The notes beneath the pieces were generated by a model. It saw only the letters and a list, made by a program, of their open reading frames with translations, ran no database searches and was not told the origin of the DNA. From the IMG/VR virus record IMGVR_UViG_3300009068_000108, positions 1 through 32,624 of that record: a stretch of DNA of 32,624 nucleotides; one strand, given 5' to 3'. Below are positions 8,301 through 32,624 of the stretch, in pieces. This stretch comes from a virus. Within the stretch, counting starts at the first letter, position 1. The number at the start of each line of letters is the position of its first letter. The translations under genes were made by a program, and so were the position numbers.

Positions 8301-11300
8301 ATTAGTGCATCTGCTGCTGCCTGCTGGTCTGGAGTTTGTTTACCAGCGGCTGTTAAAGCTTGATTTGCTACTTTTTGAGCACCTGCAATAGCTGTTGCTG
8401 TTTTAGTTTGAGCCTGAAGATTGCTAATTTGAATTTGTGTTTGCAATCTAGCAGTTTCTTCCTCATTAATACTTTTAATTTTGGCTAGGTAAACTTCTGC
8501 GCTAGAATTATTTTGTGCGTACACATCTAATTTAGAACGTTTTAATTCTAATTCTCCTAGTCTTTCAGAATTTTTAATTTCTCGCTTACTGGTTTCTAGT
8601 GCTGCGTTTAAATTAACTTGTCTAATATCTTCTGCTAGTTTAAGTCGAATTGTATCTAGCTTAATTTGATGCTCTCTAATTTCATTTTGCGCTGCAAGTT
8701 TTTTACGTTCTTCTTCAGTAAGTTCTGTACGTCTTACAGCTTCTTTTCCAATCTCTTTTTGTAAGTTTTTATTAGCAATTAAATCATCTTGTAATTTTCT
8801 TGTTTCAGTTTTTTCAGCTTCTGTTTGCTGTACCATTAAACTTTTTGTTTGAGCTAAACGCTCAGTTATTTTAAATTCAGCTTCTTTAAGCGCAAATATT
8901 TTATCGCCAGCATCTTGATTGTTTCTGTTTTCCTCAGCATTTAACTTACGATTTGATTCTTGAAATTCAGCAATACGTTGTTGATTTTCTAGGGCTTTGT
9001 TAGTCATACCAGTAGCAAATGTACTACCAGCACCACCAATATCGCCTAAAGCACTAACAGTCATTCTACTTTTTTCTAGAGCAGCATTTTTTTCAATATA
9101 ATTTGTCTGAGCTTTAGACTGTTCAAGTTCATATTGTCTAGCACGTTCAGCAATTTTAGCTTCTACTAATGCAATTTGTTTATTAAGATTTAAAATATCT
9201 TTTTTACCATCTGTTTCTATTTTAACTTTTTGTTTTGCTATTTCCGCTAATTCAGTTACCTGATTCATTTCTTTAGTTAATTCACCACTATCGCTACCGA
9301 CTACGTCTATTTTTTTATTAATCTCGTCAATTTTCTTTGCACGATCAATCTCAATGGCCCTTAGTTTTTCAGCAGAATCTTCATCTGCTCTAGCAAGTTC
9401 TATTCTAGCAGTTTCATTTGCTAAAAATTGTTCTGAAGTACTAGATAACTTAGCATAAACACCTAACCTAGCCATAGTCATATTATAAGATACTTGACTA
9501 CGAGCAATATCTACATCTAAATTAGCTTTATTTATTTCATATGCTCTGTTAATAGCCTGTAGTTCAAACTGTAACAGTTTTTGCCTATCTTGAATTGCTT
9601 TAGTGTCTAATTCAATTATATGACGCTCTTGAGTTGCCTTAAGTATTGCTTCAGCGTTACCAACACTTTCTTTATTAATCACTCCTGTAGCAAGTTTAGC
9701 TGTTGCTACTGCTGCAGTTGCATCAGCCAGTTCTTTTGCTTGATTCTTTAATAGAATTTCTTGTGCTTTTTGATTTTCTGTTGTAATTAAGGTTTCATCA
9801 GCAACTCCTAAAATAGATTCTTTTAGTGCAAGCTGATCTTTCATTGCTTGTGTAACACTAGCTTCTGCAGTTAGCCTTCTTTTTTGGTCTTCAGCCTTTC
9901 CTTGAATTACTTTACCCTCTGTTGTTTTTTCATCAACTTTTGCTGCTGCTTTAACATCTTGCATGCCTTGGGCTAAAGCAGCATATCTTGGAGTTGCATT
10001 GCCTACCATCTGTTTAAGCATGGCTTGTCCTAACTCACTAAGAGGTCTGCCCCAGTCTAATTCCGCGTTAAGTTCAGCTTTAAAATTTGGAATTTGTCCA
10101 GCCTTAAGTTGTTTGTCTATTATAACTCTAAATGCTTTGGTTGCGTCAAGTTGTGCTTGAGCTTGTTCTTTCAGAGCTTGATTATCGCTATCTTTTAAAT
10201 TAGCTACTGTAACAGCTGCAGTATTTTCAGCAATAACAGCAATTAATCTATCTTGATTTAGCATTAAATCAACATTGCTTTTAATAGTTTTTAATCTAAT
10301 AGCAAATTCTTGTTGATTTAATTTGCCTTCTTCTCTGGCTTTTTCTGCACCGGTTAAAAATTGAGCACTTGCTCTAGCAATTTTAACAGCATTTAATTCA
10401 GCACCATTTTTAAGAGCTGTTTGTATTAACTCAGCACCTTTATCAAAAGCTGAATTCATGCCTGTAACAAATAAAGTTTTTGCTTTTTCAAAACTGTCTT
10501 TATCTGCTACAATCTGCACATTTTCAGCAGCAATTTGAGCGTTTGCTTTTAAACCAACATATTGTGAATAACCTTTAGTTCCTAAATTTTGTAGCTGTTC
10601 TTGTTCCGTCATTTTAGAGGGGCTACCAAATACTAAACTAGTATTTGCATCTTCAAATTCTCTTTGCGCTTTTTGAGCTTCAACTAATTGACCCCTAAAT
10701 TGGCTTAAAAGTTTTGAGTCTTGTTGTAATTCAGATCTTATTTTTATAAATTGAGTAGTAAAAGCATCACCAAAAAATGCAATTTTTTCTGGAGATTCTC
10801 CTAATTTAAGCAATGCTGCGTTAAATTCTTTAAAACTGCCCTGTGTAAGGGTTTCCATTTCTACGCCTAAATTATTGATATTTTGGCCTAGTTTAAATAA
10901 AGGATCTTGACTAGAAACACTTAATAAATAATCTTGATAAGATTTAGTAGTAGTTTCTACTGAAGATTTAAATTTTTGTAATTTACTATCTGCATTACTA
11001 ATATCTATTCCAAACTGTTTAATCTTTTCTCTAACAGGTTTTGCTCCCTCATTGCCTAATTTTACTAGAGCGTCTGTTACCTCAGAAGTATTAAAATTAT
11101 TTATTTTAAGTAAATCTTTTATCTCTGCTTCAAATTTATCGCCAACACCACTTGCTCTTGCAAGATCTATACTAGATAATATTTGCTTACTAAGAGTATC
11201 TGCTAATTTAGAGTCAACGTCTCCACCCCATGCACTACTGGCAAAATCTTTAAATTTATCAAATAGATTACCTGTTTGAATAGAACGTTTAGCTTCTGCT

Positions 11301-13219
11301 GCTGCAATAGCTGCCTCATCAGCACTTCTTGATACTTCTCTAAATGCATTGGCTAAAGCATTAATACCTTCAATGCTATTTACATTGCCATTCATAGTGC
11401 CAAACATTAATTTTAACGTTCTATTAGTATTATCAACTGATTCATTTGCAGTGTCTAATGCAGAACTAAATTTTTGCAGTTCTTTAGAATTACTTGATAA
11501 AAATGAATCAAGTATTTCGTAAACTGCTATAACCATTAAAATTCTATTTACAAAATTTCCAACTGCAGCCCCTAAATCAACTATTGCTGATGTTAAAATT
11601 GCAACACCGCCACGAGCCTTAAGTGAAGCTTTTTCAAATTTGCTTAGTTCAAGGCCTGAGCTGTCAATATCTTGTTTAAGTAATTGCCAGGCACCACTTG
11701 CTCCAATTAAACCTTGGTTTGTAGCTGCAGCAGAAACAATTGTTTCTTTAGTATAGTTGTCCTGTGCTTTGCGTGCAGCTTCAATATTAGAAGCTAAACG
11801 GGTATTACCTTTTTCTAGTTCTTTAGTCCTAGCTTCTTCAGCCATTCGAACTTTTGTTACTTGATCTTCTAAAGTTTGATACGCCTTAAATGATTCCATT
11901 GTGCCTTTTACGGCTTGTGCGGCTTGTGCATTACCTTCTTTTAAATATTTACGCCGCTCTTCTTCCATCTTCTTAAAGTCTCTGCCATTAACATCAGCAG
12001 TATCCTTGGCTAAAGCTTGTGCAGTTGCTCCTGCTGGATCAAACTGACCTTTTTTACGTAATTGTTCAATCTTTTTTTCTTGTGCTACTACAGCTTTAAG
12101 TGCATTATCTGCTTCTTGTTCAAAATCTTTAGTAGCTAATCTTTCAATTTTTTTCCTGGCTTGTCTAGCTTCATCAGCTTTTTGTATTGCTAAATCTTTA
12201 GCATCATCTGCTGCACTTCTTAAACCTTCTTTAAATTGTCCAAAAGCAGGCAATGCTTGCTTAATAAGTGCTATTCCAATAGCAGCAATAGCAGCAGTTA
12301 AAGCAGCTGGATTTTCTGAAAGTAAATTTATAATTGGTCCTAAAACTTTGTTAACAAGTTCTAATCCAGTTTGTGCTAAATTTTGTAAAGAGGCAAGTAA
12401 TTTATCGTAAGGATTAGCATTTACAGCAGCACCAAGTGCAGAAAATTTATCTTCACCTTCTTTAATTACTGCATTAGTAAATGCTTGACGTTTTTCAAAA
12501 TCAGTAAGCGAACCAACAGTTTTGCCTACACTTCTAGCATATGCCTCGGTTGCGGGTCCAATTTTAGTAAATAATCCTAACTCGTCTAGTAATTCAGGTT
12601 CTAATTTTACAACACCGCGGCTTAAACGACTTAACGCGTCGGGCAAACTAATGCCTAAACTTAGACTAGCATTTTTAGCTACTACTGCTAAACGTTCAAT
12701 ATCTTTGTTAGCAATACCAGCAGTACTAGTTTTTGCTACTGCTTGCAGTGATTCTTGTAGTGAAATTGCACCATCAGTTAATTGAACAATATTTTTACTG
12801 ACACTACCTAAGCTTTTACCAACGCTAGCACCTAATTGATCCGTACTACGAATCATATTAGTAGTATCCATAGCACGGCTAAGCGCACCAAAAGCCGCAC
12901 TAAGTGCAAATACGTTAGCGGCATAGGTTGCGTATAAACGAACTAATCCACCCAAACCTTGGGATTCTTTGGCAAAGTCTCTAGCAGCAGCACCTGTTCC
13001 AGTACCAGTAGCACGCAGCTTGCCGTATGAACTACCACTCATTGCACTTTCTGATAAACTACGACTACCAGTAGTACCGCCAGTATTTATACCTTGTTTT
13101 GCTTCGTTTTGAGCATTTTTTAGTTTACTAATAAGTGTTTCAATATTTGAAATTAGTCTCTTTGTTGAACCACCGTCAGTAACTTCTACATTATAAGTAG
13201 TAGTATTTTGTGTAGCCAT
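5318..13219 (-). CDS. Tail tape measure protein
   Basis: This 2633-aa protein is by far the largest here. I take the ATG at 13217-13219 as start because AGGAG lies five bases upstream. An in-frame TTG six codons earlier would overlap that Shine-Dalgarno site. Hydrophobic stretches occur at about 300-330 (PAALTAAIAAIGIALI), 545-590 (GGVAILTSAIVDLG, MVIAVYEILDSFL) and about 1850-1885 (GGIVGAGLVALLLAAF). Between about 700 and 1750 it is nearly all charged, Ala/Gln/Lys/Glu-rich helix typical of coiled coil. Gene order (after the tail chaperones, before tip genes) and composition make this a confident tape measure protein, which sets tail length and is ejected with the DNA. No muramidase or peptidase motif was obvious. 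It has its own consensus promoter. Confidence 0.93.
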   Translation of the reverse strand: MATQNTTTYNVEVTDGGSTKRLISNIETLISKLKNAQNEAKQGINTGGTTGSRSLSESAMSGSSYGKLRATGTGTGAAARDFAKESQGLGGLVRLYATYAANVFALSAAFGALSRAMDTTNMIRSTDQLGASVGKSLGSVSKNIVQLTDGAISLQESLQAVAKTSTAGIANKDIERLAVVAKNASLSLGISLPDALSRLSRGVVKLEPELLDELGLFTKIGPATEAYARSVGKTVGSLTDFEKRQAFTNAVIKEGEDKFSALGAAVNANPYDKLLASLQNLAQTGLELVNKVLGPIINLLSENPAALTAAIAAIGIALIKQALPAFGQFKEGLRSAADDAKDLAIQKADEARQARKKIERLATKDFEQEADNALKAVVAQEKKIEQLRKKGQFDPAGATAQALAKDTADVNGRDFKKMEEERRKYLKEGNAQAAQAVKGTMESFKAYQTLEDQVTKVRMAEEARTKELEKGNTRLASNIEAARKAQDNYTKETIVSAAATNQGLIGASGAWQLLKQDIDSSGLELSKFEKASLKARGGVAILTSAIVDLGAAVGNFVNRILMVIAVYEILDSFLSSNSKELQKFSSALDTANESVDNTNRTLKLMFGTMNGNVNSIEGINALANAFREVSRSADEAAIAAAEAKRSIQTGNLFDKFKDFASSAWGGDVDSKLADTLSKQILSSIDLARASGVGDKFEAEIKDLLKINNFNTSEVTDALVKLGNEGAKPVREKIKQFGIDISNADSKLQKFKSSVETTTKSYQDYLLSVSSQDPLFKLGQNINNLGVEMETLTQGSFKEFNAALLKLGESPEKIAFFGDAFTTQFIKIRSELQQDSKLLSQFRGQLVEAQKAQREFEDANTSLVFGSPSKMTEQEQLQNLGTKGYSQYVGLKANAQIAAENVQIVADKDSFEKAKTLFVTGMNSAFDKGAELIQTALKNGAELNAVKIARASAQFLTGAEKAREEGKLNQQEFAIRLKTIKSNVDLMLNQDRLIAVIAENTAAVTVANLKDSDNQALKEQAQAQLDATKAFRVIIDKQLKAGQIPNFKAELNAELDWGRPLSELGQAMLKQMVGNATPRYAALAQGMQDVKAAAKVDEKTTEGKVIQGKAEDQKRRLTAEASVTQAMKDQLALKESILGVADETLITTENQKAQEILLKNQAKELADATAAVATAKLATGVINKESVGNAEAILKATQERHIIELDTKAIQDRQKLLQFELQAINRAYEINKANLDVDIARSQVSYNMTMARLGVYAKLSSTSEQFLANETARIELARADEDSAEKLRAIEIDRAKKIDEINKKIDVVGSDSGELTKEMNQVTELAEIAKQKVKIETDGKKDILNLNKQIALVEAKIAERARQYELEQSKAQTNYIEKNAALEKSRMTVSALGDIGGAGSTFATGMTNKALENQQRIAEFQESNRKLNAEENRNNQDAGDKIFALKEAEFKITERLAQTKSLMVQQTEAEKTETRKLQDDLIANKNLQKEIGKEAVRRTELTEEERKKLAAQNEIREHQIKLDTIRLKLAEDIRQVNLNAALETSKREIKNSERLGELELKRSKLDVYAQNNSSAEVYLAKIKSINEEETARLQTQIQISNLQAQTKTATAIAGAQKVANQALTAAGKQTPDQQAAADALITLELSKQTELNNNAILNAQVQLDYKLKSLAVTTEQNIQQAKYNELLRASNDLSTSLKDTFGLFGDKVKAVGEALGETVTRLTESNIRQEKSAKQQLEDEKKLNDLKSNSGADEQSIIDLQNKMADDKKKNNKEELKGDLAAISSTKKMFKEKTAAYKIFAAIEKALAIAQVASNAMVLASKLTTEAGTTAATTAGTAARMPAYITDIWGQTLGKLPFPMGGIVGAGLVALLLAAFGKGGSSKAPPMVTAAQRQETQGTAMGYNAVSEKIQVRRGVFGDENAKSESIDNSLKLIAENSVDGLDYDNKMLNALKGLRDALTESAQALFGVKGLRSGTAFGTVEGANSSGGWFGVSGLFGKTTTRNIIDSGIKIAGTFLDLAKAGSGVIQTFETVSTTTKSSGFFGIGSSSKTSVGTNFGMLDPKAEAALRNAFSYAGDLLYSIGEKAGKLPDEIAKGMAGVSVDELVSLRGLTGEDFSKELSNVVGAILDDATFAIFSEFEKFAKFGEGMLETVVRVIDTNTKVNQAIKNIGTSISGQLTQSLNFSIFGIKTSINLLSTTYDKLTNDISEALVKAADGLDNFLDKVENFRSNFLTEAEQLAPINAAYRKGLIDLGYSADISREELKSLIQNFDLFNPAAGRAGKTTAETYIALLDIANGFDKVADAAESAAKKISDERDGLKRKLDELTLTTEQLRDIDVSKLDASNQALQRQVFAMQDMQTAAKTLQTRLNDVTKTMKSQITSLTDYRQSLMIGDKSTLTAVDQYQLAKKNLTDLYQTATSTTATEEQRNTALGKLQGASDQVLTLSRQLFASGEQYSVDQATVIGIIDATKADLEARKTDAELQLETLKTSNSYLQSIDTASQTTAQLIETYLASVSTYNTAATAAGGNIVGIPKLASGTNYVPYDMLAQIHQGERIIPAADNQQLMNTNMEMVQEIRLLNQRIGDLEQAIVEGAVINAQATDRNTETLSTAIGANADKAIQSARIQTRATIK

Positions 13220-13244
13220 TATATCTCCTAACAGCAACTTTTAT

Positions 13245-13281: not shown

Positions 13282-13310
13282 ATTATAACACAAGGGCACT
13301 ATTTTGTCAA
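13282..13310 (-). promoter_or_regulatory. Consensus sigma-70 promoter for the tape measure/tail tip operon
   Basis: On the minus strand the -35 is TTGACA (13305-13310) and the -10 is TATAAT (13282-13287) with a 17-base spacer, a perfect match to the bacterial consensus. It sits after the terminator of the chaperone gene, 63 bases before the tape measure start. The spacer contains GTGCCC, also present at the same position in the promoter at 23104-23132. Confidence 0.88.
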
Positions 13311-24921: not shown

Positions 24922-25238
24922 TTTCGTAACTTTTCTTCTAGGATAACAATATGTTCACGATTTTGGTGGATTAGCTCACGATTGGCTAAGATTTCTTTTT
25001 CCAAGTCTTGGCGCAACTTTTCACGTGCTAATTCAGCACCTGAATTATTAGCTTGTTTATTATCACTGGTAACTACTAGTGAAATTTTGCCGTTTAAAAT
25101 AGTAACGTCGTGTTGTAGGTTTTGCAGTGCACTCATCAAGTACACTACACAGGTAAATAACAGTGGTAACAGTGCAAAGCTAATTTTTTCAATTAGCTGA
25201 CCTTTGGCATGTGCTTCTTGTAGTTTTTCATCACTCAT
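24918..25238 (-). CDS. Membrane-anchored coiled-coil protein (holin or spanin-like candidate)
   Basis: 106 aa. A short polar N terminus is followed by one hydrophobic segment (ISFALLPLLFTCVVYLMSAL, about 19-38) and then a charged helix likely to form a coiled coil (AELAREKLRQDLEKEILANR, to the C terminus). The start overlaps the glycosyltransferase stop (TAATG), with GGAGA five bases upstream, and its stop overlaps the terminase small subunit start (ATGA). The shape fits phage holin-like or spanin-like proteins, and the window has no other clear lysis gene. Function is not established. Confidence 0.6.
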   Translation of the reverse strand: MSDEKLQEAHAKGQLIEKISFALLPLLFTCVVYLMSALQNLQHDVTILNGKISLVVTSDNKQANNSGAELAREKLRQDLEKEILANRELIHQNREHIVILEEKLRK

Positions 25239-26236
25239 TACAGTCTCCTTACCAAATTATATTTAAATATTTGCCAGCATTTTTCCCACGACCAACGATA
25301 ACTAGCTACCATAACTACATGACGTGGAATTGCTAATGCACGAACTACTGCTAGTTTAAGATCTGGGCTAGTATAGCCGGTTCTGTCTAGTTCAATAACG
25401 TCCTGTGGACCACAAACTGGATAAGCTGCCACTGGTGTACCACACGCCATTGCTTCTAGCATTACAATACCAAAAGTATCCCAACGGCTAGTAAATACTA
25501 AACAATCTGCTTGCTGGTAGTAGCTAGCTAATTCCTTGCCGGTTTTCATACCCACAAATTCCACCTCAGGATATTTTGCAGCCAAGTACTTTAGTTGCGG
25601 GCCACTACCAACTACAATTTTTTTAGCACCCAAGTAGTCCAGTTTGCAAAAGTCTTCGCAGCTCTTTTCCACACTTACTCTACCAACCCATAACAGCGTA
25701 GGATAGGGTGTTCGGCGAGGTTCTTCCAACGGATAAAACTGTTGACGATCTACGCCGCGGGTCCAAGGCACAATTTCACCACAAAATTTATGCTGTTTAA
25801 GTTCATTAACCATGCTGACCGTGGTAGTCAACACTTTGCCACTATGTTTGTGAAACCACCTAAGATAACGATAGGTCCAGCTAGTAGGAATACCATAGTA
25901 ACGTTTTAAGGCTTCTGGAATTTTGGTGTGATAGCTGGTATTATATCGCCAACCATGACGGTCCATCCAGCAGCGTGCTGCCAGCCCTAGTGGGCCTTCA
26001 GTAGCAATATGCACATATTGAGGGTTTATCTGCTCCAGTACTTTGCCAATTTGGCGAGGCCACGATAGCCTAATATCCCCATAACCAGGAGCACCACAAT
26101 TAGGGAACTGCCGGGGATCACAATATACAATATCGTAGCCATCGCGATTTGCTTCGCGTTCCAAGTTGCGGAACGTTGTAACCACTCCGTTAACTTGTTG
26201 GGGGACATTATCCGTTACTACTAGTATTGTTTTCAT
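25238..26236 (-). CDS. GT4-family glycosyltransferase (MgtA/SQD2-like)
   Basis: 332 aa with the full GT-B plan. N-terminal: MKTILVVTDNVPQQVNGVVTT (acceptor loop NGVVTT at 16-21), YNTSYHTKIP (98-107). Linker: PWTRGVDRQQFYP (157-169). C-terminal nucleotide-sugar domain: LLWVGRVSVEK (181-191), VVGSGPQ, FTSRWDTFGIVMLEAMACGT with E261. The TDTFG-type version of the E-x7-E motif and the HIATEGPLG segment are typical of GT4 enzymes that transfer mannose or a sulfosugar to lipids. It overlaps the phosphoesterase gene by 29 bases. Such a pair often lies side by side in Proteobacteria, so it was probably acquired as a unit. Likely membrane-associated, modifying a lipid or envelope glycan; the substrate is unknown. 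Confidence 0.87.
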   Translation of the reverse strand: MKTILVVTDNVPQQVNGVVTTFRNLEREANRDGYDIVYCDPRQFPNCGAPGYGDIRLSWPRQIGKVLEQINPQYVHIATEGPLGLAARCWMDRHGWRYNTSYHTKIPEALKRYYGIPTSWTYRYLRWFHKHSGKVLTTTVSMVNELKQHKFCGEIVPWTRGVDRQQFYPLEEPRRTPYPTLLWVGRVSVEKSCEDFCKLDYLGAKKIVVGSGPQLKYLAAKYPEVEFVGMKTGKELASYYQQADCLVFTSRWDTFGIVMLEAMACGTPVAAYPVCGPQDVIELDRTGYTSPDLKLAVVRALAIPRHVVMVASYRWSWEKCWQIFKYNLVRRL

Positions 26237-26969
26237 GTTTAATAATCTTCCAGTTACCGTCCAGGTTCTCTACCAGTGCAGTACACGACTCTACCCAATC
26301 ACCACTATTCATATAACCTACACTACCTACTAGCTTAATCTCAGCTTGGTGAATATGACCGCAGATAACGCCGCTAAAGTTACGCTTGTGGGCATATTTA
26401 GTAATAGTTTCTTCAAATTGCCAAATAAAGTTGGTAGCGCGTTTTACCCTAGACTTTAACCATTGAGATAAGCTCCAGTAACCAAAGCCTAAGCGATGTC
26501 GCCACTGGTTAAAGTGTGTGTTTAGCCCTAAGACAAAATCATAAGCACTGTCGCCTAGCCAAGCTAACCAAGGCGCTAATCTGGTAATACCATCAAACAT
26601 ATCGCCGTGAGTAACTAACCAGCGGCGACCGTTAAGGTCTACATACTCACACTGGTTTACTACCTCAATTCTACCAAACTTTAAACCGTAGCTGATTAGT
26701 GGACGAAGAAACTCGTCGTGATTGCCGGCTACGTATATGACTCTGGTTTTTTCACGATTAGCTTTTGCTAAAACATGACGCACTACGTTAGTATGTGAGT
26801 TTGCCCAACGCAGACGATTTTGCTTGACCTTCCAGCCGTCAATAATATCGCCAACTAAGTAAAGTTGGTCGCAAGTGTTGGATTTTAAAAATTGACTTAA
26901 GTATTCAGCTTTGCAAGCTTTAGTGCCTAAGTGCACGTCGCTGATAAAGATAGCCTTGTAGTGTGCCAC
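26208..26969 (-). CDS. LpxH-like metallophosphoesterase
   Basis: 253 aa, similar in size to LpxH (UDP-2,3-diacylglucosamine diphosphatase, about 240 aa). Calcineurin-type metal motifs are complete: SDVHLG (D11, H13), GDIIDGW (D41), GNHDEFLR (N83, H84), VTHGDMFDG (H121), and GHIHQAE (H205, H207). The sequence best matches the LpxH-related family often called UDP-2,3-diacylglucosamine diphosphatase-like rather than a DNA phosphatase: MNSGDWVES near the C terminus is typical of it. With the glycosyltransferase it could remodel host lipid A precursors or glycolipids. Substrate is inference. It follows the 50-aa membrane peptide by two bases. Confidence 0.86.
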   Translation of the reverse strand: MAHYKAIFISDVHLGTKACKAEYLSQFLKSNTCDQLYLVGDIIDGWKVKQNRLRWANSHTNVVRHVLAKANREKTRVIYVAGNHDEFLRPLISYGLKFGRIEVVNQCEYVDLNGRRWLVTHGDMFDGITRLAPWLAWLGDSAYDFVLGLNTHFNQWRHRLGFGYWSLSQWLKSRVKRATNFIWQFEETITKYAHKRNFSGVICGHIHQAEIKLVGSVGYMNSGDWVESCTALVENLDGNWKIIKHENNTSSNG

Positions 26970-27146: not shown

Positions 27147-27175
27147 AGTATAACACTTTAGGGCTTATATGTCAA
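27147..27175 (-). promoter_or_regulatory. Sigma-70-type promoter for the envelope enzyme/terminase operon
   Basis: On the minus strand the -35 is TTGACA (27170-27175, perfect) and the -10 is TATACT (27147-27152) with a 17-base spacer. The spacer contains GCCC and ends in GTGT like the promoter at 13282-13310. The first downstream start codon is at 27124. Confidence 0.84.
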
Positions 27176-27490: not shown

Positions 27491-27509
27491 AATAACCGCC
27501 CAGGTTATT
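27491..27509. repeat. Short hairpin in the 27410-27662 gap
   Basis: aataacc (27491-27497) pairs with ggttatt (27503-27509) around a 5-base loop. No T tract follows. The gap also contains a degenerate GGCAC and AGGGCCCCT stretch (27411-27475) that looks like decayed copies of the modules further right. Confidence 0.4.
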
Positions 27510-27515
27510 ACAAAG

Positions 27516-27567
27516 TCTATTATATTATAAATCCTATTATATTATAAAATCTATAATAATTATAAAT
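27516..27567. repeat. AT-only tandem repeats upstream of the first HTH gene
   Basis: Units TCTATTATATTATAAA (27516-27531), CCTATTATATTATAAA (27533-27548) and a degenerate third unit (27550-27567) form about 50 bases of nearly pure A/T. This is an easily melted stretch between two promoters. It could be an UP-element-like region, a protein-binding array or a replication start; only the repeat itself is seen. Confidence 0.5.
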
Positions 27568-27571
27568 TCCC

Positions 27572-27588
27572 TGCGTCAATATGTCGCA
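27572..27588. promoter_or_regulatory. Candidate operator, copy 1
   Basis: TGCGTCAATATGTCGCA is a near-perfect 17-base palindrome (one mismatched pair). It ends 10 bases before the -35 box of the first HTH gene. The same site recurs at 28692-28708 in front of another promoter, within a 40-base block with four differences. A regulator, perhaps the HTH protein itself, may bind here. Confidence 0.5.
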
Positions 27589-27598
27589 CCCTTTGGGC

Positions 27599-27627
27599 TT
27601 GCATTGTCTGGTTGACTAGCCTATAAT
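27599..27627 (+). promoter_or_regulatory. Promoter of the first HTH/SprT operon
   Basis: TTGCAT (27599-27604), 17 bases, TATAAT (27622-27627). The -10 is perfect and the -35 is weak, suggesting activator dependence or help from the operator-like site upstream. The bases after the -10 (ACTACAT) are shared with the promoters at 28719 and 29746. Confidence 0.72.
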
Positions 27628-27662
27628 TACTACATCGAAACAGCACTCAAAGGGAGAGCAAA

Positions 27663-27989
27663 ATGGCAGAAAAAGCCGTAAACTATAGCCCTGAGCAAAC
27701 CGCTCAGATTATTGCCGATTATCAGTCGGGCGTTAGCGTTGAATCGTTGGCATTGGCAATGGGTAAATCCGTTCGCTCAATCGTTGCTAAACTGTCACGC
27801 GAAGGCGTGTATCAGAAAAAAGCATACAAAACCAAAACGGGCGAACCCGTTGTGAAAAAAGATGCTCATGCTGATGCAATTGGCGCAATCTTGCGCTTGC
27901 CTGAGAATGACATCGAATCGCTCACTAAAGCTAACAAGAGCGCATTAAAAGCGATCTTCGAAGCATTGGCTAATTCTAAGCCAATCTAA
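27663..27989 (+). CDS. HTH-type DNA-binding protein, copy 1
   Basis: 108 aa, starting MAEKAVNYSPEQTAQIIADY, with AGGGAG six bases upstream. Residues 25-50 (SVESLALAMGKSVRSIVAKL) look like a helix-turn-helix; the rest is basic (KKAYKTKTGEPVVKKD) and then helical. Small proteins of this type are common in phages of aquatic bacteria and are usually annotated as hypothetical or HTH proteins. A second copy lies at 32140-32466 (93 of 108 residues identical). It is the first gene of a short operon with the SprT-like protease and a membrane protein. Likely a transcription regulator or DNA-structuring protein. Confidence 0.75.
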   Translation: MAEKAVNYSPEQTAQIIADYQSGVSVESLALAMGKSVRSIVAKLSREGVYQKKAYKTKTGEPVVKKDAHADAIGAILRLPENDIESLTKANKSALKAIFEALANSKPI

Positions 27990-28016
27990 GCTAACGTAGA
28001 ATAGGATAACGAACCC

Positions 28017-28379
28017 ATGAACGTCGCAACATTAAATGCCACAATTCAGGCTCAGGCGACTAAGATATGGGTTCGTTATACTAACATTTACACTAGGCTT
28101 GCATTGTTTCCAATGCCCGTTATTAAACTTAATAACAGATTGACTAAGACTGCGGGGCGTTGCTTTATGGAAGCTAACGTAATAGATATTGGTACTAAAT
28201 TCTTTAATAAACATCATGACCGTATGCTCTCCGAAATTATGGTACATGAAATAGCGCATCAGGTTGACTATAACCTTAATGGTGTACCAGCAGGCAATCG
28301 TTGGCATGGTAAAACCTGGCAGGATATTATGCTAAACTATGGCGCAACACCTAACACTTATCACGACATGGAATTATAA
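28017..28379 (+). CDS. SprT-like zinc metalloprotease, copy 1
   Basis: 120 aa. The zinc site HEIAH is at residues 77-81 and the third ligand region WHGKTW (His97) follows, the arrangement of SprT/Spartan-type proteases. The N-terminal part is helical (VATLNATIQAQATKIWVR), with the typical strand-turn VIDIGTKF before the helix carrying HExxH. Spartan-type enzymes cleave proteins cross-linked to DNA, and SprT-like domains are frequent in phages, possibly removing proteins from phage DNA. No zinc-ribbon C-terminal domain is present. It lies downstream of the HTH gene and overlaps the next start (TAATG). Confidence 0.82.
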   Translation: MNVATLNATIQAQATKIWVRYTNIYTRLALFPMPVIKLNNRLTKTAGRCFMEANVIDIGTKFFNKHHDRMLSEIMVHEIAHQVDYNLNGVPAGNRWHGKTWQDIMLNYGATPNTYHDMEL

Positions 28380-28585
28380 TGTTAGCATGGATTGGCACAA
28401 TTGCCAGTATAGCGGGATCTTTTCTGGTTGCAATGGGCGTAATGAATTGGGGTTATATATGCTTTGCTACTGGATCAATAAGTTGGCTAATCATTGCACT
28501 AATGCGACGAGATAAAGCATTGGGCACACTTAATGGGGCCTTTTTAATAGCTAATACGATCGGCATTGTTAATTATGTAATTTAA
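28379..28585 (+). CDS. 68-aa membrane protein (SemiSWEET/PnuC-like appearance)
   Basis: Three hydrophobic segments: LAWIGTIASIAGSFLVAMGV, GYICFATGSISWLIIALM and GTLNGAFLIANTIGIVNYVI, separated by a basic loop (RRDKA). The N-x-x-GI motif at the C terminus recalls SemiSWEET or PnuC-type small transporters, which are made of three-helix bundles. That resemblance is weak and function is unproven. It is coupled to the SprT gene by a one-base overlap. Confidence 0.6.
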   Translation: MLAWIGTIASIAGSFLVAMGVMNWGYICFATGSISWLIIALMRRDKALGTLNGAFLIANTIGIVNYVI

Positions 28586-28593
28586 AACGACCG

Positions 28594-28692
28594 GGTGTTG
28601 CAAAAAAACAACACCGCTGGCGCCAAATTATAGCATATAATTTGGGGCCGTGTCAAGGGGGTGGGCAAAAATACCACACTAGGGGAAACCCT
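28594..28692. repeat. Intergenic module A
   Basis: In order: hairpin ggtgttg (28594-28600), A-rich loop, caacacc (28609-28615); a GGCGCC site (28619-28624); inverted repeat ccaaattata-gca-tataatttgg (28623-28645); CGTGTCAA; a ggtgggcaaaaataccac element; and the hairpin AGGGGAAACCCT (28681-28692). The same elements recur in three other gaps to the right. No coding potential is seen. Confidence 0.7.
28627..28656 (-). promoter_or_regulatory. Antisense consensus promoter, module A
   Basis: Minus strand TTGACA (28651-28656), 18 bases, TATAAT (28627-28632). It overlaps the inverted repeat and is followed by TTTGGCGCC. It points back into the plus-strand operon 27663-28585, antisense to it. Confidence 0.65.
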
Positions 28693-28708
28693 GCGTCAAT
28701 GTGTCGCA
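28692..28708. promoter_or_regulatory. Candidate operator, copy 2
   Basis: TGCGTCAATGTGTCGCA, one base different from the site at 27572-27588 and at the same distance from the following -35 box. Confidence 0.5.
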
Positions 28709-28718
28709 CCCTGGGGGC

Positions 28719-28746
28719 TTGCATTCTCTGAAAATCGGCGTATAAT
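28719..28746 (+). promoter_or_regulatory. Promoter of the small-ORF operon 28778-29540
   Basis: TTGCAT (28719-28724), 16 bases, TATAAT (28741-28746), followed by TCACTACATGG. The expected start of transcription (about 28752-28754) falls at or just before an ATG, so the mRNA could be leaderless. Confidence 0.7.
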
Positions 28747-28777
28747 TCACTACATGGACACAACGCACAGCAACAAG

Positions 28778-28933
28778 ATGAAAACCAGCCGATCACAAGA
28801 AGCAGTTATTGCGCTCCTGAAAAAACAATTGCAAACTGAAAGAAAAGAGATTGTTCGTAATAGTTTCTTTAAGATATTTAATAACCTGAATAACAAACTG
28901 AAACAACAATTGTGGATTGAGGCACAACTATAA
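28778..28933 (+). CDS. Small basic helical protein
   Basis: 51 aa from the ATG at 28778 (MKTSRSQEAVIALLKKQLQT), highly charged and helical. No Shine-Dalgarno sequence precedes it. An in-frame ATG at 28754, probably at the very 5' end of the mRNA, would add MDTTHSNK. The same leader peptide pattern precedes the HAD gene. Length and helical pattern suggest a small nucleic-acid or protein binding factor; I do not recognise it. Its stop overlaps the next start (TAATG). Confidence 0.55.
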   Translation: MKTSRSQEAVIALLKKQLQTERKEIVRNSFFKIFNNLNNKLKQQLWIEAQL

Positions 28934-29001
28934 TGGAAACTGTAATTGTTTTAACTGCAATGTTTTATGGCAAGATTTGGTTTATTGAGCGGTATTTATA
29001 A
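28933..29001 (+). CDS. 22-aa hydrophobic micro-protein
   Basis: METVIVLTAMFYGKIWFIER plus two residues. It overlaps the preceding stop and the following start by one base each (TAATG twice), so it fits exactly into the coupled chain. A hydrophobic stretch (VIVLTAMFYGKIWFI) suggests membrane insertion. The support is the double coupling; no homologue is known to me. Confidence 0.45.
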   Translation: METVIVLTAMFYGKIWFIERYL

Positions 29002-29168
29002 TGGCGACAAAATTACACTTGGCACTGGCAATGAAAAAAGCCAGCAAACCTGATAATCGGGCGCATAAGCCCCTATTTGTGAATAGCCCATTTAAGCCTA
29101 AGGTTATTCCAAATAAAAAACAAAGCAAATTGGCTAAACTGTTTAATGGTTGGGGTTTTGATGACTAA
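29001..29168 (+). CDS. 55-aa basic protein
   Basis: Starts MATKLHLALAMKKASKPDNR; rich in Lys and Pro with a C-terminal LAKLFNGWGFDD. Its start overlaps the 22-aa ORF stop and its stop lies eight bases inside the next gene. Very basic in the middle, so nucleic-acid binding is possible. Unrecognised. Confidence 0.55.
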   Translation: MATKLHLALAMKKASKPDNRAHKPLFVNSPFKPKVIPNKKQSKLAKLFNGWGFDD

Positions 29169-29358
29169 ATTCAATTTGATTGAGGAAGCGGCAAAATTCG
29201 AAACGTCGCAATTAACCCGCGACGAATTGATTTATTTTGTAGAATCTGTTAAAATGCACGAGATGATGGAATTGGATTATCCGGCTTTAGTAAAACGCAT
29301 TGAGCGTACTGCTAAACACTTGGTTGATGTTGCACAATTTTTTAACAAAGGAGAATGA
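29161..29358 (+). CDS. 65-aa acidic helical protein
   Basis: I choose ATG 29161 (MTKFNLIEEAAKFETSQLTR), which overlaps the stop of the preceding gene by eight bases (ATGACTAA); an in-frame ATG 15 bases upstream lies deeper in that gene. The protein is helical and acidic (DELIYFVESVKMHEMMELDY) with a C-terminal helix (KRIERTAKHLVDVAQFF). No known domain is evident. Confidence 0.6.
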   Translation: MTKFNLIEEAAKFETSQLTRDELIYFVESVKMHEMMELDYPALVKRIERTAKHLVDVAQFFNKGE

Positions 29359-29360
29359 TT

Positions 29361-29540
29361 ATGTTTATGGCTAAAAGCACTAATGACGAAACCATTATGT
29401 CAATTGGTAATTCCATTGAGGAAGTCTGGCAAGACTTGCAATTTGGTTTTGAATTGACCGATGATGATTTTGAGGATTTAGAATGGTTTGAGGTAGATCC
29501 AATTACCGTAAAACGTAAATTGGAATTCGTTATTGAATAA
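29361..29540 (+). CDS. 59-aa strongly acidic protein
   Basis: Start ATG 29361 has GGAG seven bases upstream; an in-frame ATG at 29355 would sit too close to that site. The sequence is mostly acidic (EEVWQDLQFGFELTDDDFED). Acidic small phage proteins sometimes mimic DNA or bind basic host proteins, but there is no direct evidence for that here. Last gene before a large GC-rich palindrome. Confidence 0.62.
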   Translation: MFMAKSTNDETIMSIGNSIEEVWQDLQFGFELTDDDFEDLEWFEVDPITVKRKLEFVIE

Positions 29541-29548
29541 ATAACGAT

Positions 29549-29570
29549 TGGCCAGGCCGCGGCCTGGCCA
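29549..29570. terminator. 22-bp GC-rich perfect palindrome after the small-ORF operon
   Basis: tggccaggccg and cggcctggcca are perfectly complementary with no loop bases, the most GC-rich site of the right arm. It lies eight bases after the stop at 29540. There is no T tract, so it may be a pause/processing hairpin rather than a true intrinsic terminator. As DNA it could equally be a binding or cruciform site. Confidence 0.55.
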
Positions 29571-29596
29571 TGTGTTGTAAAAAAACAACACATGGC
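29567..29596. repeat. Module B hairpin with A-rich loop
   Basis: gccatgtgttgt (29567-29578) pairs with acaacacatggc (29585-29596) over 12 bases around six A. Equivalent stems are at 28594-28615 and 30783-30804. Downstream in module B are a GGCGCC/inverted repeat (29594-29622), a second hairpin gttgtat-tt-atacaac (29653-29668), a second GGCGCC (29673-29678) and AGGGGTTTGTCCCT (29712-29725). Confidence 0.65.
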
Positions 29597-29602
29597 GCCA
29601 AA

Positions 29603-29632
29603 ATTATAACATATAATTTTGGGCCGCGTCAA
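29603..29632 (-). promoter_or_regulatory. Antisense promoter B1
   Basis: Minus strand TTGACG (29627-29632), 18 bases, TATAAT (29603-29608), followed by TTTTGGCGCC. The RNA would begin with the 12-bp hairpin at 29567-29596 and continue through the GC-rich palindrome antisense to 29361-29540. Confidence 0.6.
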
Positions 29633-29681
29633 GCAAAATTTGAAAAATTTGTGTTGTATTTATACAACGCTTGGCGCCAAA

Positions 29682-29710
29682 ATTTTACCACGGCAAAAAT
29701 TTTCTGTCAA
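29682..29710 (-). promoter_or_regulatory. Antisense promoter B2
   Basis: Minus strand TTGACA (29705-29710), 17 bases, TAAAAT (29682-29687), followed by TTTGGCGCC. It lies in tandem behind B1 and reads toward it. Confidence 0.58.
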
Positions 29711-29745
29711 TAGGGGTTTGTCCCTATGTTGTATTTTTGCAAAAC

Positions 29746-29774
29746 CTGGCACAACCCGATTTTTCGTGTATAAT
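29746..29774 (+). promoter_or_regulatory. Promoter of the HAD gene operon
   Basis: CTGGCA (29746-29751), 17 bases, TATAAT (29769-29774), then TCTCTACATGG. The TSS is expected at about 29780-29782, next to an ATG, as in the promoter at 28719-28746. Confidence 0.68.
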
Positions 29775-29805
29775 TCTCTACATGGACACAACACAGAGCA
29801 ACAAG

Positions 29806-30285
29806 ATGATTAAGCGGATCGCAATTTATGACATGGATGGAACAATCGTTGATTCAAGCCACCGTTACCGGACTATTCTCACCGACCAAGGTGAGCGCAT
29901 TGATATTGGCTATTGGCGAGATAATCAGCATTTGGCAATGTTGGATGGCCTATTGCCATTGGCTAATAAATTTTGGGATGACTTGGACGATCCAGAATGT
30001 TATACAATTATTGCGACTGCGCGTGTAATGAATGATCCAGATTGGGAATTTTTAAATACTAAATTGGGTATGCCAGATTATGTTATCTCGCGTACCCGCG
30101 ATGATCAACAATCAGGTTCCACGCTAAAGATTAACGGTTTAATTGAATGTTTTAAAACTGCTAATATTAACTTGGCAATGATGACTGATGTTGTTTTTTA
30201 CGAGGACAATGTACAGTATTTAAAAGCGGTATGCGATTATTTTAATATTCGCGGTGAATATATTCCAAGCAAACAAGGACACTAA
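29806..30285 (+). CDS. HAD-type phosphatase
   Basis: 159 aa from ATG 29806. Motif I DMDGTIVDS (residues 9-17) carries both catalytic aspartates; IIATARV gives the motif II Thr; a Lys in STLKING is a motif III candidate; and VVFYEDNVQYL gives the motif IV acidic pair. This is a small HAD hydrolase similar to phage-encoded 5'-nucleotidase or polynucleotide-phosphatase-like proteins. I chose the start at the beginning of the fold (MIKRIAIYDMDGT). An in-frame ATG at 29782 would add MDTTQSNK and might be used on a leaderless mRNA. Likely substrate is a nucleotide or nucleic-acid end, by analogy only. Confidence 0.82.
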   Translation: MIKRIAIYDMDGTIVDSSHRYRTILTDQGERIDIGYWRDNQHLAMLDGLLPLANKFWDDLDDPECYTIIATARVMNDPDWEFLNTKLGMPDYVISRTRDDQQSGSTLKINGLIECFKTANINLAMMTDVVFYEDNVQYLKAVCDYFNIRGEYIPSKQGH

Positions 30286-30286
30286 A

Positions 30287-30382
30287 ATGACTAACGGAAA
30301 CGATCCAGACAAAATTGTTTTTTATGCGCTAATTGCCAGCACATTGGCAATTGCTTATCTTGTTTTTACCGGAGCAGTATAA
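30287..30382 (+). CDS. 31-aa membrane micro-protein
   Basis: MTNGNDPDKIVFYALIASTL followed by AIAYLVFTGAV: a polar N terminus and one membrane span. AAGGA lies nine bases upstream, and its stop overlaps the next start (TAATG). The ribosome site plus coupling support translation. Function unknown. Confidence 0.58.
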   Translation: MTNGNDPDKIVFYALIASTLAIAYLVFTGAV

Positions 30383-30564
30383 TGAAACCATGGAATGAAT
30401 TAACCCGATTGGAACAATTGGCAATAACCCATTGGGACGCTTACAAAGACGCGCATGGCGTGCGTCCTCGTTGGATTGATACCAGCCAATGGACTGAATC
30501 AGATTTTGAAAGTGAAATTGAATTGTTAATTGAAATAATGAAACGCGATAATCAGGAGGATTGA
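30382..30564 (+). CDS. Small conserved-type phage protein (RPRW motif)
   Basis: 60 aa: MKPWNELTRLEQLAITHWDA, then YKDAHGVRPRW and an acidic C-terminal helix (ESDFESEIELLIEIMKRDNQ). The YKDxxGxRPR segment is familiar from small phage and bacterial hypothetical proteins. No function is known to me. It is coupled to the 31-aa ORF. Confidence 0.68.
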   Translation: MKPWNELTRLEQLAITHWDAYKDAHGVRPRWIDTSQWTESDFESEIELLIEIMKRDNQED

Positions 30565-30566
30565 TC

Positions 30567-30773
30567 ATGGATTTTTTAAATTATGACATTCTGGATTGTT
30601 GTGGTGCTTATGGCCGCAAGGCCACTTGGGACGATTGGGTTAATGGCCTAGACTTTAAAATTATTGACGGCCCGTATTTTAGCATAAAAGATTGCAAGGA
30701 ATTAAGCAAGGAATACGACGAATTGCATTTTCGTTCTGCAATGGGAATTGAATTCCGGGTGTATTTAAAATAA
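30567..30773 (+). CDS. 68-aa hypothetical protein
   Basis: MDFLNYDILDCCGAYGRKAT, start ATG 30567 with a perfect AGGAGG seven bases upstream. A Cys pair (CC) near residue 12, several aromatic residues (WDDWVNGLDF) and a beta-type C terminus (MGIEFRVYLK). Unrecognised. Last gene of the HAD operon before module C. Confidence 0.65.
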   Translation: MDFLNYDILDCCGAYGRKATWDDWVNGLDFKIIDGPYFSIKDCKELSKEYDELHFRSAMGIEFRVYLK

Positions 30774-30814
30774 ATAACGAAATGTGTTGCGAAAAAACAA
30801 CACATGGCGCCAAA

Positions 30815-30844
30815 ATTATACCATATAATTTTGGGACGTGTCAA
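30815..30844 (-). promoter_or_regulatory. Antisense promoter C1
   Basis: Minus strand TTGACA (30839-30844), 18 bases, TATAAT (30815-30820), followed by TTTTGGCGCC. It points antisense into 30567-30773. Confidence 0.65.
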
Positions 30845-30901
30845 GAAAAATTTTGTAAATTTTTCGTGCTGTTGTATTTTTACAACAGCTGACGCGCCAA
30901 A

Positions 30902-30930
30902 ATTTTACCACCAAAAAATTTTTTTGTCAA
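30902..30930 (-). promoter_or_regulatory. Antisense promoter C2
   Basis: Minus strand TTGACA (30925-30930), 17 bases, TAAAAT (30902-30907), then TTTTGGCGCG. Same tandem position as B2. Confidence 0.58.
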
Positions 30931-30965
30931 TAGGGGAAAACCCCTATGTTGTATTTTTGCAAAAC

Positions 30966-30995
30966 CTGGCACTGGGCAAATTTTCGTGGTATTAT
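30966..30995 (+). promoter_or_regulatory. Promoter of the exonuclease/SprT operon
   Basis: CTGGCA (30966-30971), 18 bases, TATTAT (30990-30995). It shares the upstream element aaaacctggcac with the promoter at 29746. The leader contains a small hairpin cggc-gtctt-gccg (31003-31015). Confidence 0.6.
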
Positions 30996-31034
30996 CTTAA
31001 CTCGGCGTCTTGCCGTGGCTAACCCTTATCTATC

Positions 31035-31736
31035 GTGGCTAAAAAGCAGTTTTTCGCAATTCTCGACACCGAAACCACTTGCAATGATACTGTTGCAGAC
31101 TTTGCAATTGTTATTTGCGATCGCAATGGTCGCATTTACAATAAATGCGCGGTATTGGTTCGCAATCATTTTGATGCAATGGATCTTTTTTATGACAAAA
31201 CAAAAGCTAATTCCGAAATGTGGTCGCGTGAATACGCAAGCAAAAAGCAAACCCAATATTTTGCAATGCTTGATTCGGGTAAACGGCAATTGGCGTCTGT
31301 TGCCTCAATCAATGCGTGGATTCAAAAAGCCATTGGCAAATACAATCCTACATTAACCGCTTACAATCTGGCATTTGATAAAACCAAATGCCAAAATACT
31401 GGCATTGATCTTTCGGGTTTTGCTGAATCGTTTTGCCTTTGGCAAGCAGCTATTGGCAATATTTGCAAAAAACAATATCGTCAATTTGCACTTGACAATC
31501 ATTTGTTTAATGCTCCGACTAAACACGGCAATATGTCCATTAAAACTACTGCTGAATCTGTTTTTGCATTTTTAAATGGTCAATTTGTTGAAGAGCCGCA
31601 TACTGCATTAGAAGATGCACAAGACTTTGAATTGCCAATTCTGGTCAATGTTTTAAAACGTCGCAATTGGCGTGACAATATCATTGCACATGATTGGAAA
31701 CGGTTTCAAGTAAAAGATTTTTACAAGGCAATCTAA
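31035..31736 (+). CDS. DEDDh 3'-5' exonuclease (DnaQ/RNase T-like)
   Basis: 233 aa, starting at a GTG (GTGGCTAAAAAG). Exo I LDTETT (D11, E13), Exo II TAYNLAFDKTK (D115) and Exo III with the DEDDh pattern EEPHTALEDAQ (H189, D194) are all present. The middle (KKQTQYFAMLDSGKRQ) is longer than in minimal DnaQ domains. Such phage exonucleases act in nucleotide recycling, proofreading or RNA/DNA end trimming. No polymerase is encoded in the window. No clear Shine-Dalgarno site is seen before the GTG, so the exact start is less certain than the function. Confidence 0.87.
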   Translation: MAKKQFFAILDTETTCNDTVADFAIVICDRNGRIYNKCAVLVRNHFDAMDLFYDKTKANSEMWSREYASKKQTQYFAMLDSGKRQLASVASINAWIQKAIGKYNPTLTAYNLAFDKTKCQNTGIDLSGFAESFCLWQAAIGNICKKQYRQFALDNHLFNAPTKHGNMSIKTTAESVFAFLNGQFVEEPHTALEDAQDFELPILVNVLKRRNWRDNIIAHDWKRFQVKDFYKAI

Positions 31737-31737
31737 A

Positions 31738-32079
31738 ATGGAAAATTTAGCATATTACATTGAATTCTTGGGGCTGAAAAGCCCTGTTGAATTGACGTTT
31801 AAAACCAAATCCAATAAAACAATGGATGCAGTTTATTATCCTAAATTTTCCAATAAGGGTAATTTAAAAGCGCATAAAATTACCGTATTTCTGGGCAATC
31901 AGGATGTTAATTCACGGCGCACGCTAGACGAATTGGTCGCACACGAATTGATTCATGCTTGGCAACAAGAAAATAACCTTGTTGAATTTCACGGGATTAA
32001 TTTTGTTGTGCAAGCAATTGCAATGGACGATAAATTTGATTTGCCTAATATTTACCTTGCTGAATTAGACGACGAATAA
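31738..32079 (+). CDS. SprT-like zinc metalloprotease, copy 2
   Basis: 113 aa. HELIH (residues 69-73) and FHG (His85) form a SprT-type zinc site, preceded by ITVFLGNQD and TLDELVA. The sequence is only distantly related to the copy at 28017-28379, although domain size and motif order match. It starts two bases after the exonuclease stop and has no strong ribosome site, so it is probably coupled. It is followed by the second HTH gene, the reverse of the order in the first pair. Confidence 0.8.
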   Translation: MENLAYYIEFLGLKSPVELTFKTKSNKTMDAVYYPKFSNKGNLKAHKITVFLGNQDVNSRRTLDELVAHELIHAWQQENNLVEFHGINFVVQAIAMDDKFDLPNIYLAELDDE

Positions 32080-32086
32080 TTTGCAC

Positions 32087-32115
32087 TTGATTAACCCATC
32101 CCAACCCTGTATAAT
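32087..32115 (+). promoter_or_regulatory. Promoter of the second HTH gene
   Basis: TTGATT (32087-32092), 17 bases, TATAAT (32110-32115). It lacks the TGCG palindrome found in front of the first HTH gene, so the two copies may respond to different signals. Confidence 0.7.
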
Positions 32116-32139
32116 ATTAACTTAACTGGAGAAAACGCA

Positions 32140-32466
32140 ATGGCTGAAAAGACTGTAAACTATACCCCTGAGCAAACCCTGAACCTGATTGCTGATTACA
32201 AAAACGGTTTCACCGTTGAGGAATTGGCTGTTCAAATGGGCAAATCGGTTCGCTCAATTGTTGCTAAACTCTCGCGTGAGGGAGTTTATCAAAAGAAAAC
32301 CTATAAAACAAAAACCGGCGAGGCAGTTGTTAAAAAAGACGCGCACGCTGATGCAATTGGCGCAATTCTCCGATTGCCAGAAAACGATATTGAATCGTTG
32401 ACCAAGGCTAATAAATCGGCACTAAAAGCCATTTTTAACGCATTGGCTAATTCAAAACCCATTTAA
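32140..32466 (+). CDS. HTH-type DNA-binding protein, copy 2
   Basis: 108 aa, starting MAEKTVNYTPEQTLNLIADY with GGAGA nine bases upstream. It is identical to copy 1 (27663-27989) at 93 of 108 residues by my count. Twelve of the 15 changes fall in the first 32 residues, while the HTH region and the C-terminal part are almost unchanged. At DNA level most synonymous positions differ. It has its own promoter and terminator, so it is a single-gene unit. Its function is probably the same class of regulator as copy 1, with altered partner or DNA choice at the N terminus. Confidence 0.76.
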   Translation: MAEKTVNYTPEQTLNLIADYKNGFTVEELAVQMGKSVRSIVAKLSREGVYQKKTYKTKTGEAVVKKDAHADAIGAILRLPENDIESLTKANKSALKAIFNALANSKPI

Positions 32467-32476
32467 TTGGGCACTT

Positions 32477-32504
32477 AATAAAACCGGCAATTGCCGGTTT
32501 TATT
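32477..32504 (+). terminator. Intrinsic terminator after the second HTH gene
   Basis: aataaaaccggcaa pairs with ttgccggttttatt as a 28-base perfect palindrome, followed by a T-rich stretch (tatttta). It begins 11 bases after the stop codon. The symmetric A and T runs would allow it to work in both directions. Confidence 0.85.
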
Positions 32505-32514
32505 TTATGCAAAT

Positions 32515-32551
32515 CGTTTTAAAAAATATAATCGTTATATTTTTTAAAACG
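32515..32551. repeat. Long inverted repeat of module D
   Basis: cgttttaaaaaatata (32515-32530) and tatattttttaaaacg (32536-32551) are perfectly complementary over 16 bases with a 5-base loop. It occupies the position that the A-loop hairpins have in modules A to C, just before GGCGCC (32551-32556). Confidence 0.7.
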
Positions 32552-32557
32552 GCGCCC

Positions 32558-32587
32558 ATTATACTAGTATAATGGGGAACGTGTCAA
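32558..32587 (-). promoter_or_regulatory. Antisense consensus promoter, module D
   Basis: Minus strand TTGACA (32582-32587), 18 bases, TATAAT (32558-32563), followed by GGGCGCC. It is embedded in the palindrome ccattatactagtataatgg (32556-32575). It reads back through the inverted repeat and terminator toward the second HTH gene. Confidence 0.66.
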
Positions 32588-32589
32588 GG

Positions 32590-32624
32590 GGTTGTGCAAA
32601 AATACAACACTAGGGGAAACCCTA
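32590..32624. repeat. Module D tail hairpins at the right window edge
   Basis: gttgtgcaaaaatacaac (32591-32608) forms a small stem, followed by AGGGGAAACCCT (32612-32623). Both match module A (28659-28692); the following promoter and gene would lie outside the window. Confidence 0.6.

Follow-up and report, generated by a model that had tools for sequence, protein, structure and literature searches.

Repeated intergenic modules at the ends of small operons in an uncultured T5-like phage carry near-consensus sigma-70 promoters that point backwards, into the genes that they follow. The phage is represented by the record IMGVR_UViG_3300009068_000108, a 32.6-kb piece of 32,624 nucleotides (nt) that is referred to here, at its full length, as the window. 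Its late genes lie on the minus strand, and a block of small genes that bears the modules lies on the plus strand. What the sequences themselves establish is a promoter class distinct from the sense promoters of these phages, together with its orientation, its location and conservation, the hairpins, and the co-variation of the palindrome arms. Their activity as promoters, and any part in interference or timing, are predictions made from sequence. The modules may brake or insulate pre-early operons through transcription interference, a reading that we favor tentatively and rate at somewhat less than an even chance. The original prediction, which read the sites as a family of antisense promoters inside repeated intergenic modules, is partly supported.

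Six minus-strand sites in the window match 11 or 12 of the 12 bases of the sigma-70 hexamers, as judged by E. coli rules that may not be those of the host and that the phages' own sense promoters fit well. All of the predicted sites are present, three of them with perfect matches (28627-28656, 30815-30844, and 32558-32587) and three with 11 of 12 bases (29603-29632, 29682-29710, and 30902-30930). Their −35 and −10 hexamers lie near TTGACA and TATAAT within the 16-18 nt separation of sigma-70 promoters. In the interval 27501-32624, where these six sites reach at least 11/12, Markov controls average 0.27 such sites and peak at 3. They also surpass the gene-sense promoters of the same block (9-10/12), as had been proposed. 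Directly after each site comes GGCGCC (GGCGCG at 30894), and then a hairpin. An A/T-loop hairpin had been described at every site; the GC-rich sequence and the hairpin both occur throughout, and at site 32558 the hairpin is of a different kind, made up entirely of A and T.

All of these elements lie on the minus strand. Module 1 (28620-28656) consists of TTGACA-N18-TATAAT, GGCGC at 28620-28624, and a palindrome that includes the −10 box (28623-28645); in its downstream hairpin (28594-28615), GGTGTTG and CAACACC flank a T-rich loop (z score −2.65). Module 2 (29595-29632) has TTGACG-N18-TATAAT and GGCGC, with a palindrome at 29598-29622, and is followed by a hairpin at 29570-29593 (z −5.0) and then a GC-rich palindrome at 29549-29570. 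In tandem upstream of it, module 3 (29674-29710; TTGACA-N17-TAAAAT and GGCGC) lacks a perfect palindrome, and its hairpin, GTTGTA/TACAAC at 29653-29668, is weak (z −1.3). Module 4 (30807-30844; TTGACA-N18-TATAAT and GGCGC; palindrome 30810-30834) precedes a hairpin at 30782-30805 (z −2.4). The tandem module 5 upstream of it (30894-30930; TTGACA-N17-TAAAAT and GGCGC) precedes one at 30868-30889 (GCTGTTGTA/TACAACAGC; z −5.4). Module 6 (32552-32587; TTGACA-N18-TATAAT and GGCGC; palindrome 32555-32576) is followed by the A/T hairpin at 32515-32551 (z −5.6), which is separate from a bidirectional terminator-like palindrome at 32477-32504. The leaders of five of the six modules therefore fold better than shuffled sequences (z −2.4 to −5.6), the sixth being the weak one. 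Rfam gave no covariance-model match at its gathering score.

Several properties separate the modules from sense promoters in the same genomes. The spacer is 18 nt long in 415 of 466 modules, whereas it is 17 nt in 125 of 145 sense promoters. TTGACA is present in 426 of the 466 modules (91%, the rest having TTGACG, the only other form that the module search admitted) and in 29 of the 145 sense promoters (20%). When sites were anchored on the −10 box and GGCGC alone, every block site but one had a complete TTGACA (6/6), and that one is the TTGACG of the window. The sequence after the −10 box has a GC content of 70% in the modules, compared with 23% in the A/T-rich discriminators of the sense promoters. 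Furthermore, in three genomes scanned base by base, other sites of at least 11/12 were nearly all in sense or inside genes, those in gaps outside the block were essentially all in sense, and none was followed by GGCGC. The other minus-strand near-consensus promoters of the window, at 13282-13310 (12/12) and 27147-27175 (11/12), are of the ordinary kind, in sense with minus-strand genes, and likewise lack GGCGC.

The modules recur in relatives that make up a large clade of uncultured T5-like phages, all of the records being metagenomic. A search with the DNA pattern alone retrieved 118 IMG/VR stretches, and all 110 of those that were new code for proteins related to those of the window; the palindromic pattern had no match among 84,980 bacterial and archaeal genomes. 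A general pattern, TTGAC-N17..19-TATAAT-N0..3-GGCGC, was found in all of the 38 IMG/VR records scanned, at 1-16 sites per record and always on one strand within a record, which demonstrates the strand rule and not the prevalence, since these records were preselected as known relatives. The reversed pattern, used as a control, gave zero sites in the 38 records, and there are zero general-pattern sites in complete T5 and in Vibrio phage D51. In eight relatives of ~100 kb and in the window, every site lies inside a single block of small genes, 5-8 kb long. Where genes were called on both sides, 402 of 446 distinct modules face a gene on the opposite strand. The pattern anticipated in relatives is thus conserved, always with GGCGC and on one strand per record, and its antisense placement holds for ~90% of modules and not for all. 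The median distance from GGCGC to the stop codon of the facing gene is 73 nt, although single distances may be off because gene calling relied on a simple codon-usage script. Among co-directional gaps, 34 of 52 within the block contain a module, compared with 0 of 138 elsewhere. No module lies in the divergent gap that precedes the first gene of the block, and convergent gaps do contain them, which ties the modules to 3′ ends rather than 5′ ends.

The inverted repeat noted earlier in the promoters with 18-nt spacers is real. Palindromes that include the −10 box and have arms of at least 8 base pairs occur in 326 of 466 modules, compared with 1 when spacers are shuffled; ~30% of modules lack one. 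Arms differ in sequence, and loops (2-8) and discriminators in length, while pairing is preserved, TATAAT occurring with ATTATA and TAAAAT with ATTTTA, and the discriminator bases almost always pair. The co-variation table was drawn from modules already classed as palindromic and from related, non-independent sequences, so that its p-value makes the case look stronger than it is, which the number of distinct arm types does not. Conserved half-sites at a fixed spacing, as in the operator of a dimeric repressor, are not seen. With half-sites and spacing varying and base-pairing maintained, the palindrome looks more like a hairpin or cruciform than like an operator for a dimer. Inverted repeats conserved without promoter boxes, a finding that would have spoken against antisense promoters, were looked for, and 462 of 572 GG|CGC palindromes proved to keep both boxes. 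Almost all of the remainder are accounted for by variant −10 boxes, by the second hairpin, or by the same sites counted on the opposite strand, and only about seven of the 572 lack a good −35 box; the palindrome thus hardly ever occurs apart from the promoter. Two other readings were rejected. A symmetric bidirectional promoter does not account for co-variation that extends beyond the mirrored −10 box, and its mirror side has no −35 box; a single-stranded DNA promoter of the F-plasmid Frpo type is set aside because the −35 box of the modules lies outside the hairpin stem.

Beyond GGCGC, a second hairpin starts after a median of 3 nt in 411 of 466 modules, compared with 165 in shuffled sequences. 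Terminator-like hairpins within 120 nt are found in 32% of modules in the promoter sense (3.5% shuffled) and in 32% in the gene sense (5% shuffled). Terminator-like sites within 70 nt in the promoter sense are found in 21% (1.8% shuffled). A canonical U-tract is absent from most modules. Sharing of downstream 7-mers reaches 57% among modules of one genome, compared with 18% for shuffled sequences and 44% between genomes, and the hairpin sequence itself is not conserved across the clade. A coding role for the antisense RNA was rejected, with a ribosome site and open reading frame (ORF) in only 3 of 466 leaders. The asymmetry of G-U pairs was uninformative as a test of which strand folds (31 against 41).

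The location of the modules is relevant to what they might do. The terminase and portal of the window have matches to phage families, and the terminase is ~50% identical to those of Vibrio T5-like phages. The ORF at 29782-30285 is a homologue of T5 dmp, which encodes deoxynucleoside-5′-monophosphatase (E 1e-8, ~32% identical). In the T5 annotation, dmp lies within the first-step-transfer DNA and is a pre-early gene. From dmp and the position beside the terminase, we infer that the module block takes the place of the pre-early region of T5. No homologues of A1 or A2 were found, and named phages gave no DNA match to the block.

In the reading that we favor, each module would be a dedicated antisense sigma-70 promoter that lies just past the final stop codon of a small operon and is directed back into it through a hairpin. 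Host RNA polymerase at the module would block, or collide with, polymerase transcribing the operon. This interference could set or end expression of the pre-early operon, and could keep it from reading into the next cassette, with the hairpins between stop codon and promoter helping to halt polymerase from both sides. Short structured RNAs might be an additional product or a by-product. Interference or insulation is favored because the order of gene, hairpin, and reverse promoter is that of a synthetic repressing part: a terminator with a reverse promoter at the 3′ end of a gene represses in proportion to promoter strength (Brophy & Voigt 2016, PMC4731013). The modules resemble this part in that the promoter lies beyond a 3′-end terminator hairpin and fires into the gene. 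They differ in being natural, repeated in one phage block, and equipped with their own spacer, GGCGC, and palindrome, and in having hairpins that look partly bidirectional. The GGCGC discriminator, in contrast to the A/T-rich one of the sense promoters, might also set the timing of the class apart, so that it would, for instance, fire weakly while the entering DNA is relaxed and more strongly at later stages. This is a suggestion that draws on a link between GC-rich discriminators and supercoiling sensitivity (PMC8422995).

Several observations weigh against interference. In the same synthetic library, strong reverse promoters behind bidirectional terminators gave no repression (PMC4731013), so the effect of a module could be nil where its hairpin terminates both ways. 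No recognizable module is present in 18 of the 52 block gaps. The offset of GGCGC from the −10 box varies from 0 to 3 nt, which is odd for a pure contact with RNA polymerase, and interference leaves the co-varying −10 palindrome in two thirds of modules unaccounted for.

The main rival explanation is that the promoters make short structured RNAs (~35-100 nt), hairpin first, which would work in cis or in trans, pairing to the 3′ untranslated regions of several block mRNAs being one possibility. The close position of the second hairpin, the folding of five of the six window leaders, the promoter-sense terminator-like sites within 70 nt, and the 7-mers common to the modules of one genome are all consistent with such RNAs. 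The lack of clade-wide hairpin conservation, 7-mer sharing that is nearly as frequent between genomes as within them, the scarcity of canonical U-tracts, and a G-U asymmetry that does not favor the antisense RNA make this explanation rather unlikely, if one to be taken seriously. Alternatively, the palindrome could be an operator to which one or more of four helix-turn-helix (HTH)-like paralogues bind, switching a divergent promoter pair. In each relative, these paralogues, which match DNA-binding PHROGs, are encoded in or beside the block; moreover, the −10 box falls within the palindrome, and a distance of 32-46 nt often separates the divergent −35 boxes. Binding of a repressor to the inverted repeat, which had been suggested earlier, is nevertheless less supported, since half-sites and spacing vary (loops of 2-8; ATTATA or ATTTTA arms) with only palindromicity preserved, and the palindrome is absent in ~30% of modules; we regard an operator as improbable.

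Recombination or gene-shuffling cassettes like the PeSLs of T4, whose promoters drive the following gene in sense, would give promoter direction a secondary role, a shared sequence at operon ends permitting genes to be swapped. The repeats are near-identical within a genome and lie among variable small genes; however, a near-invariant TTGACA and a class-specific spacer amid divergent sequence, together with an absolute strand bias, leave this with little likelihood. The modules might instead be distal promoters of the late operon, reading across the block into the terminase and structural genes, and in mapped relatives they do point in the same direction as the adjoining late operon. This is very improbable, as a sense promoter already serves the late operon (at 27147-27175 in the window, and a similar one in relative G001), the gap adjoining that operon has no module, and a hairpin follows each start. 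Least probable of all is that GGCGC is nicked on one strand, as are the Pu/GCGC sites of T5, in packaging or DNA transfer. The T5 annotation has 5′-NPu pGCGCN-3′ nicks on one strand only, and the modules likewise have RGCGC on one strand, near the terminase. However, only 13 of 466 modules continue as GCGCRGG, in disagreement with the R/GCGCRGG consensus, GGCGC is otherwise common on both strands, and TTGACA and TATAAT would be superfluous for nicks. T5 nick sites, which have other flanks, no promoter boxes, and a genome-wide spread (PMC3517423), were rejected on these sequence grounds.

Comparison with known promoters and cassettes sets the modules apart further. Early and late sigma-70 promoters of T5 are likewise strong host-polymerase promoters, with classes distinguished mainly by the discriminator (PMC7472727). 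The T5 early discriminator, ATATT (PMC7472727), is not found in the modules, which have instead GGCGC, an 18-nt spacer, and antisense orientation. With the PeSL cassettes of T4-type phages (Arbiol 2010; Comeau 2014; both cited in PMC4503421), the modules share a repeated promoter and stem-loop in gaps of a variable early region, and differ in pointing backwards, away from the next gene, with sense promoters separate. Neither phage T5 nor the literature searched yielded a comparable backward promoter class. The fuller proposal is of a distinct discriminator-marked sigma-70 class that faces only backward, is restricted to pre-early operon ends, has its −10 box in a co-varying hairpin, and times or shuts off these operons through convergent transcription; we consider it possible, with considerable doubt. 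According to PMC7472727, it is unknown how T5 shuts off its pre-early genes when it has only the sigma-70 polymerase of the host; an antisense class found across the clade and confined to the pre-early counterpart would suggest a mechanism open to direct testing. Such a class would also show in nature a part hitherto only synthetic, and would be a case of antisense promoters maintained by purifying selection rather than arising as noise.

The module-bearing block (27663-32466, plus strand) has modules at its operon ends and encodes two HTH-like paralogues, two SprT-like proteins, and the dmp homologue, among others. Candidate sense promoters on the plus strand are found at 28719-28746 for the next operon (TTGCAT-N16-TATAAT), at 29746-29774 (CTGGCA-N17-TATAAT), and at 30966-30995 (CTGGCA-N18-TATTAT), the last two each 35 nt beyond an antisense −35 box. 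More generally, the next operon's own promoter often lies 32-46 nt beyond that box. Hairpins with T-rich tracts, terminator-like in the gene sense, lie at 29710-29727, beyond the antisense promoter, and at 30930-30947. The HTH-like proteins are ~108 amino acids long (window copies at 27663-27989 and 32140-32466), with four paralogues in each of the eight relatives. The family has weak matches to a D5-like regulator and to DNA-binding PHROGs, none in Pfam, and no relative found in named phages. The SprT-like proteins are encoded at 28017-28379 and 31738-32079, the second being a weak match.

Other features were observed in the relatives. Modules at the convergent junction (such as G001:32973-33010 and G022:3475-3512) have no palindrome and carry a common spacer motif, GGTTT-GCACTG, before the −10 box, and are perhaps a subclass. 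In L278 (G011), the first module at the convergent junction is succeeded by ~1.2 kb without called genes (~1966-3145), in which there is a tRNA-like sequence; similar gene-free gaps of 1-2 kb are present in G013 and G018. Genome-wide, GGCGC is about twofold commoner on one strand, with G001, G002, G004, and G015 skewed against G018 and G022, probably as a result of codon usage. Elsewhere in the window, genes for a glycosyltransferase and a metallophosphoesterase (25238-26969) separate the late promoter from the terminase genes. An ORF of 2639 amino acids (5318-13237) occupies the position of a tape measure gene, with the 12/12 sense promoter at 13282-13310 directly upstream.

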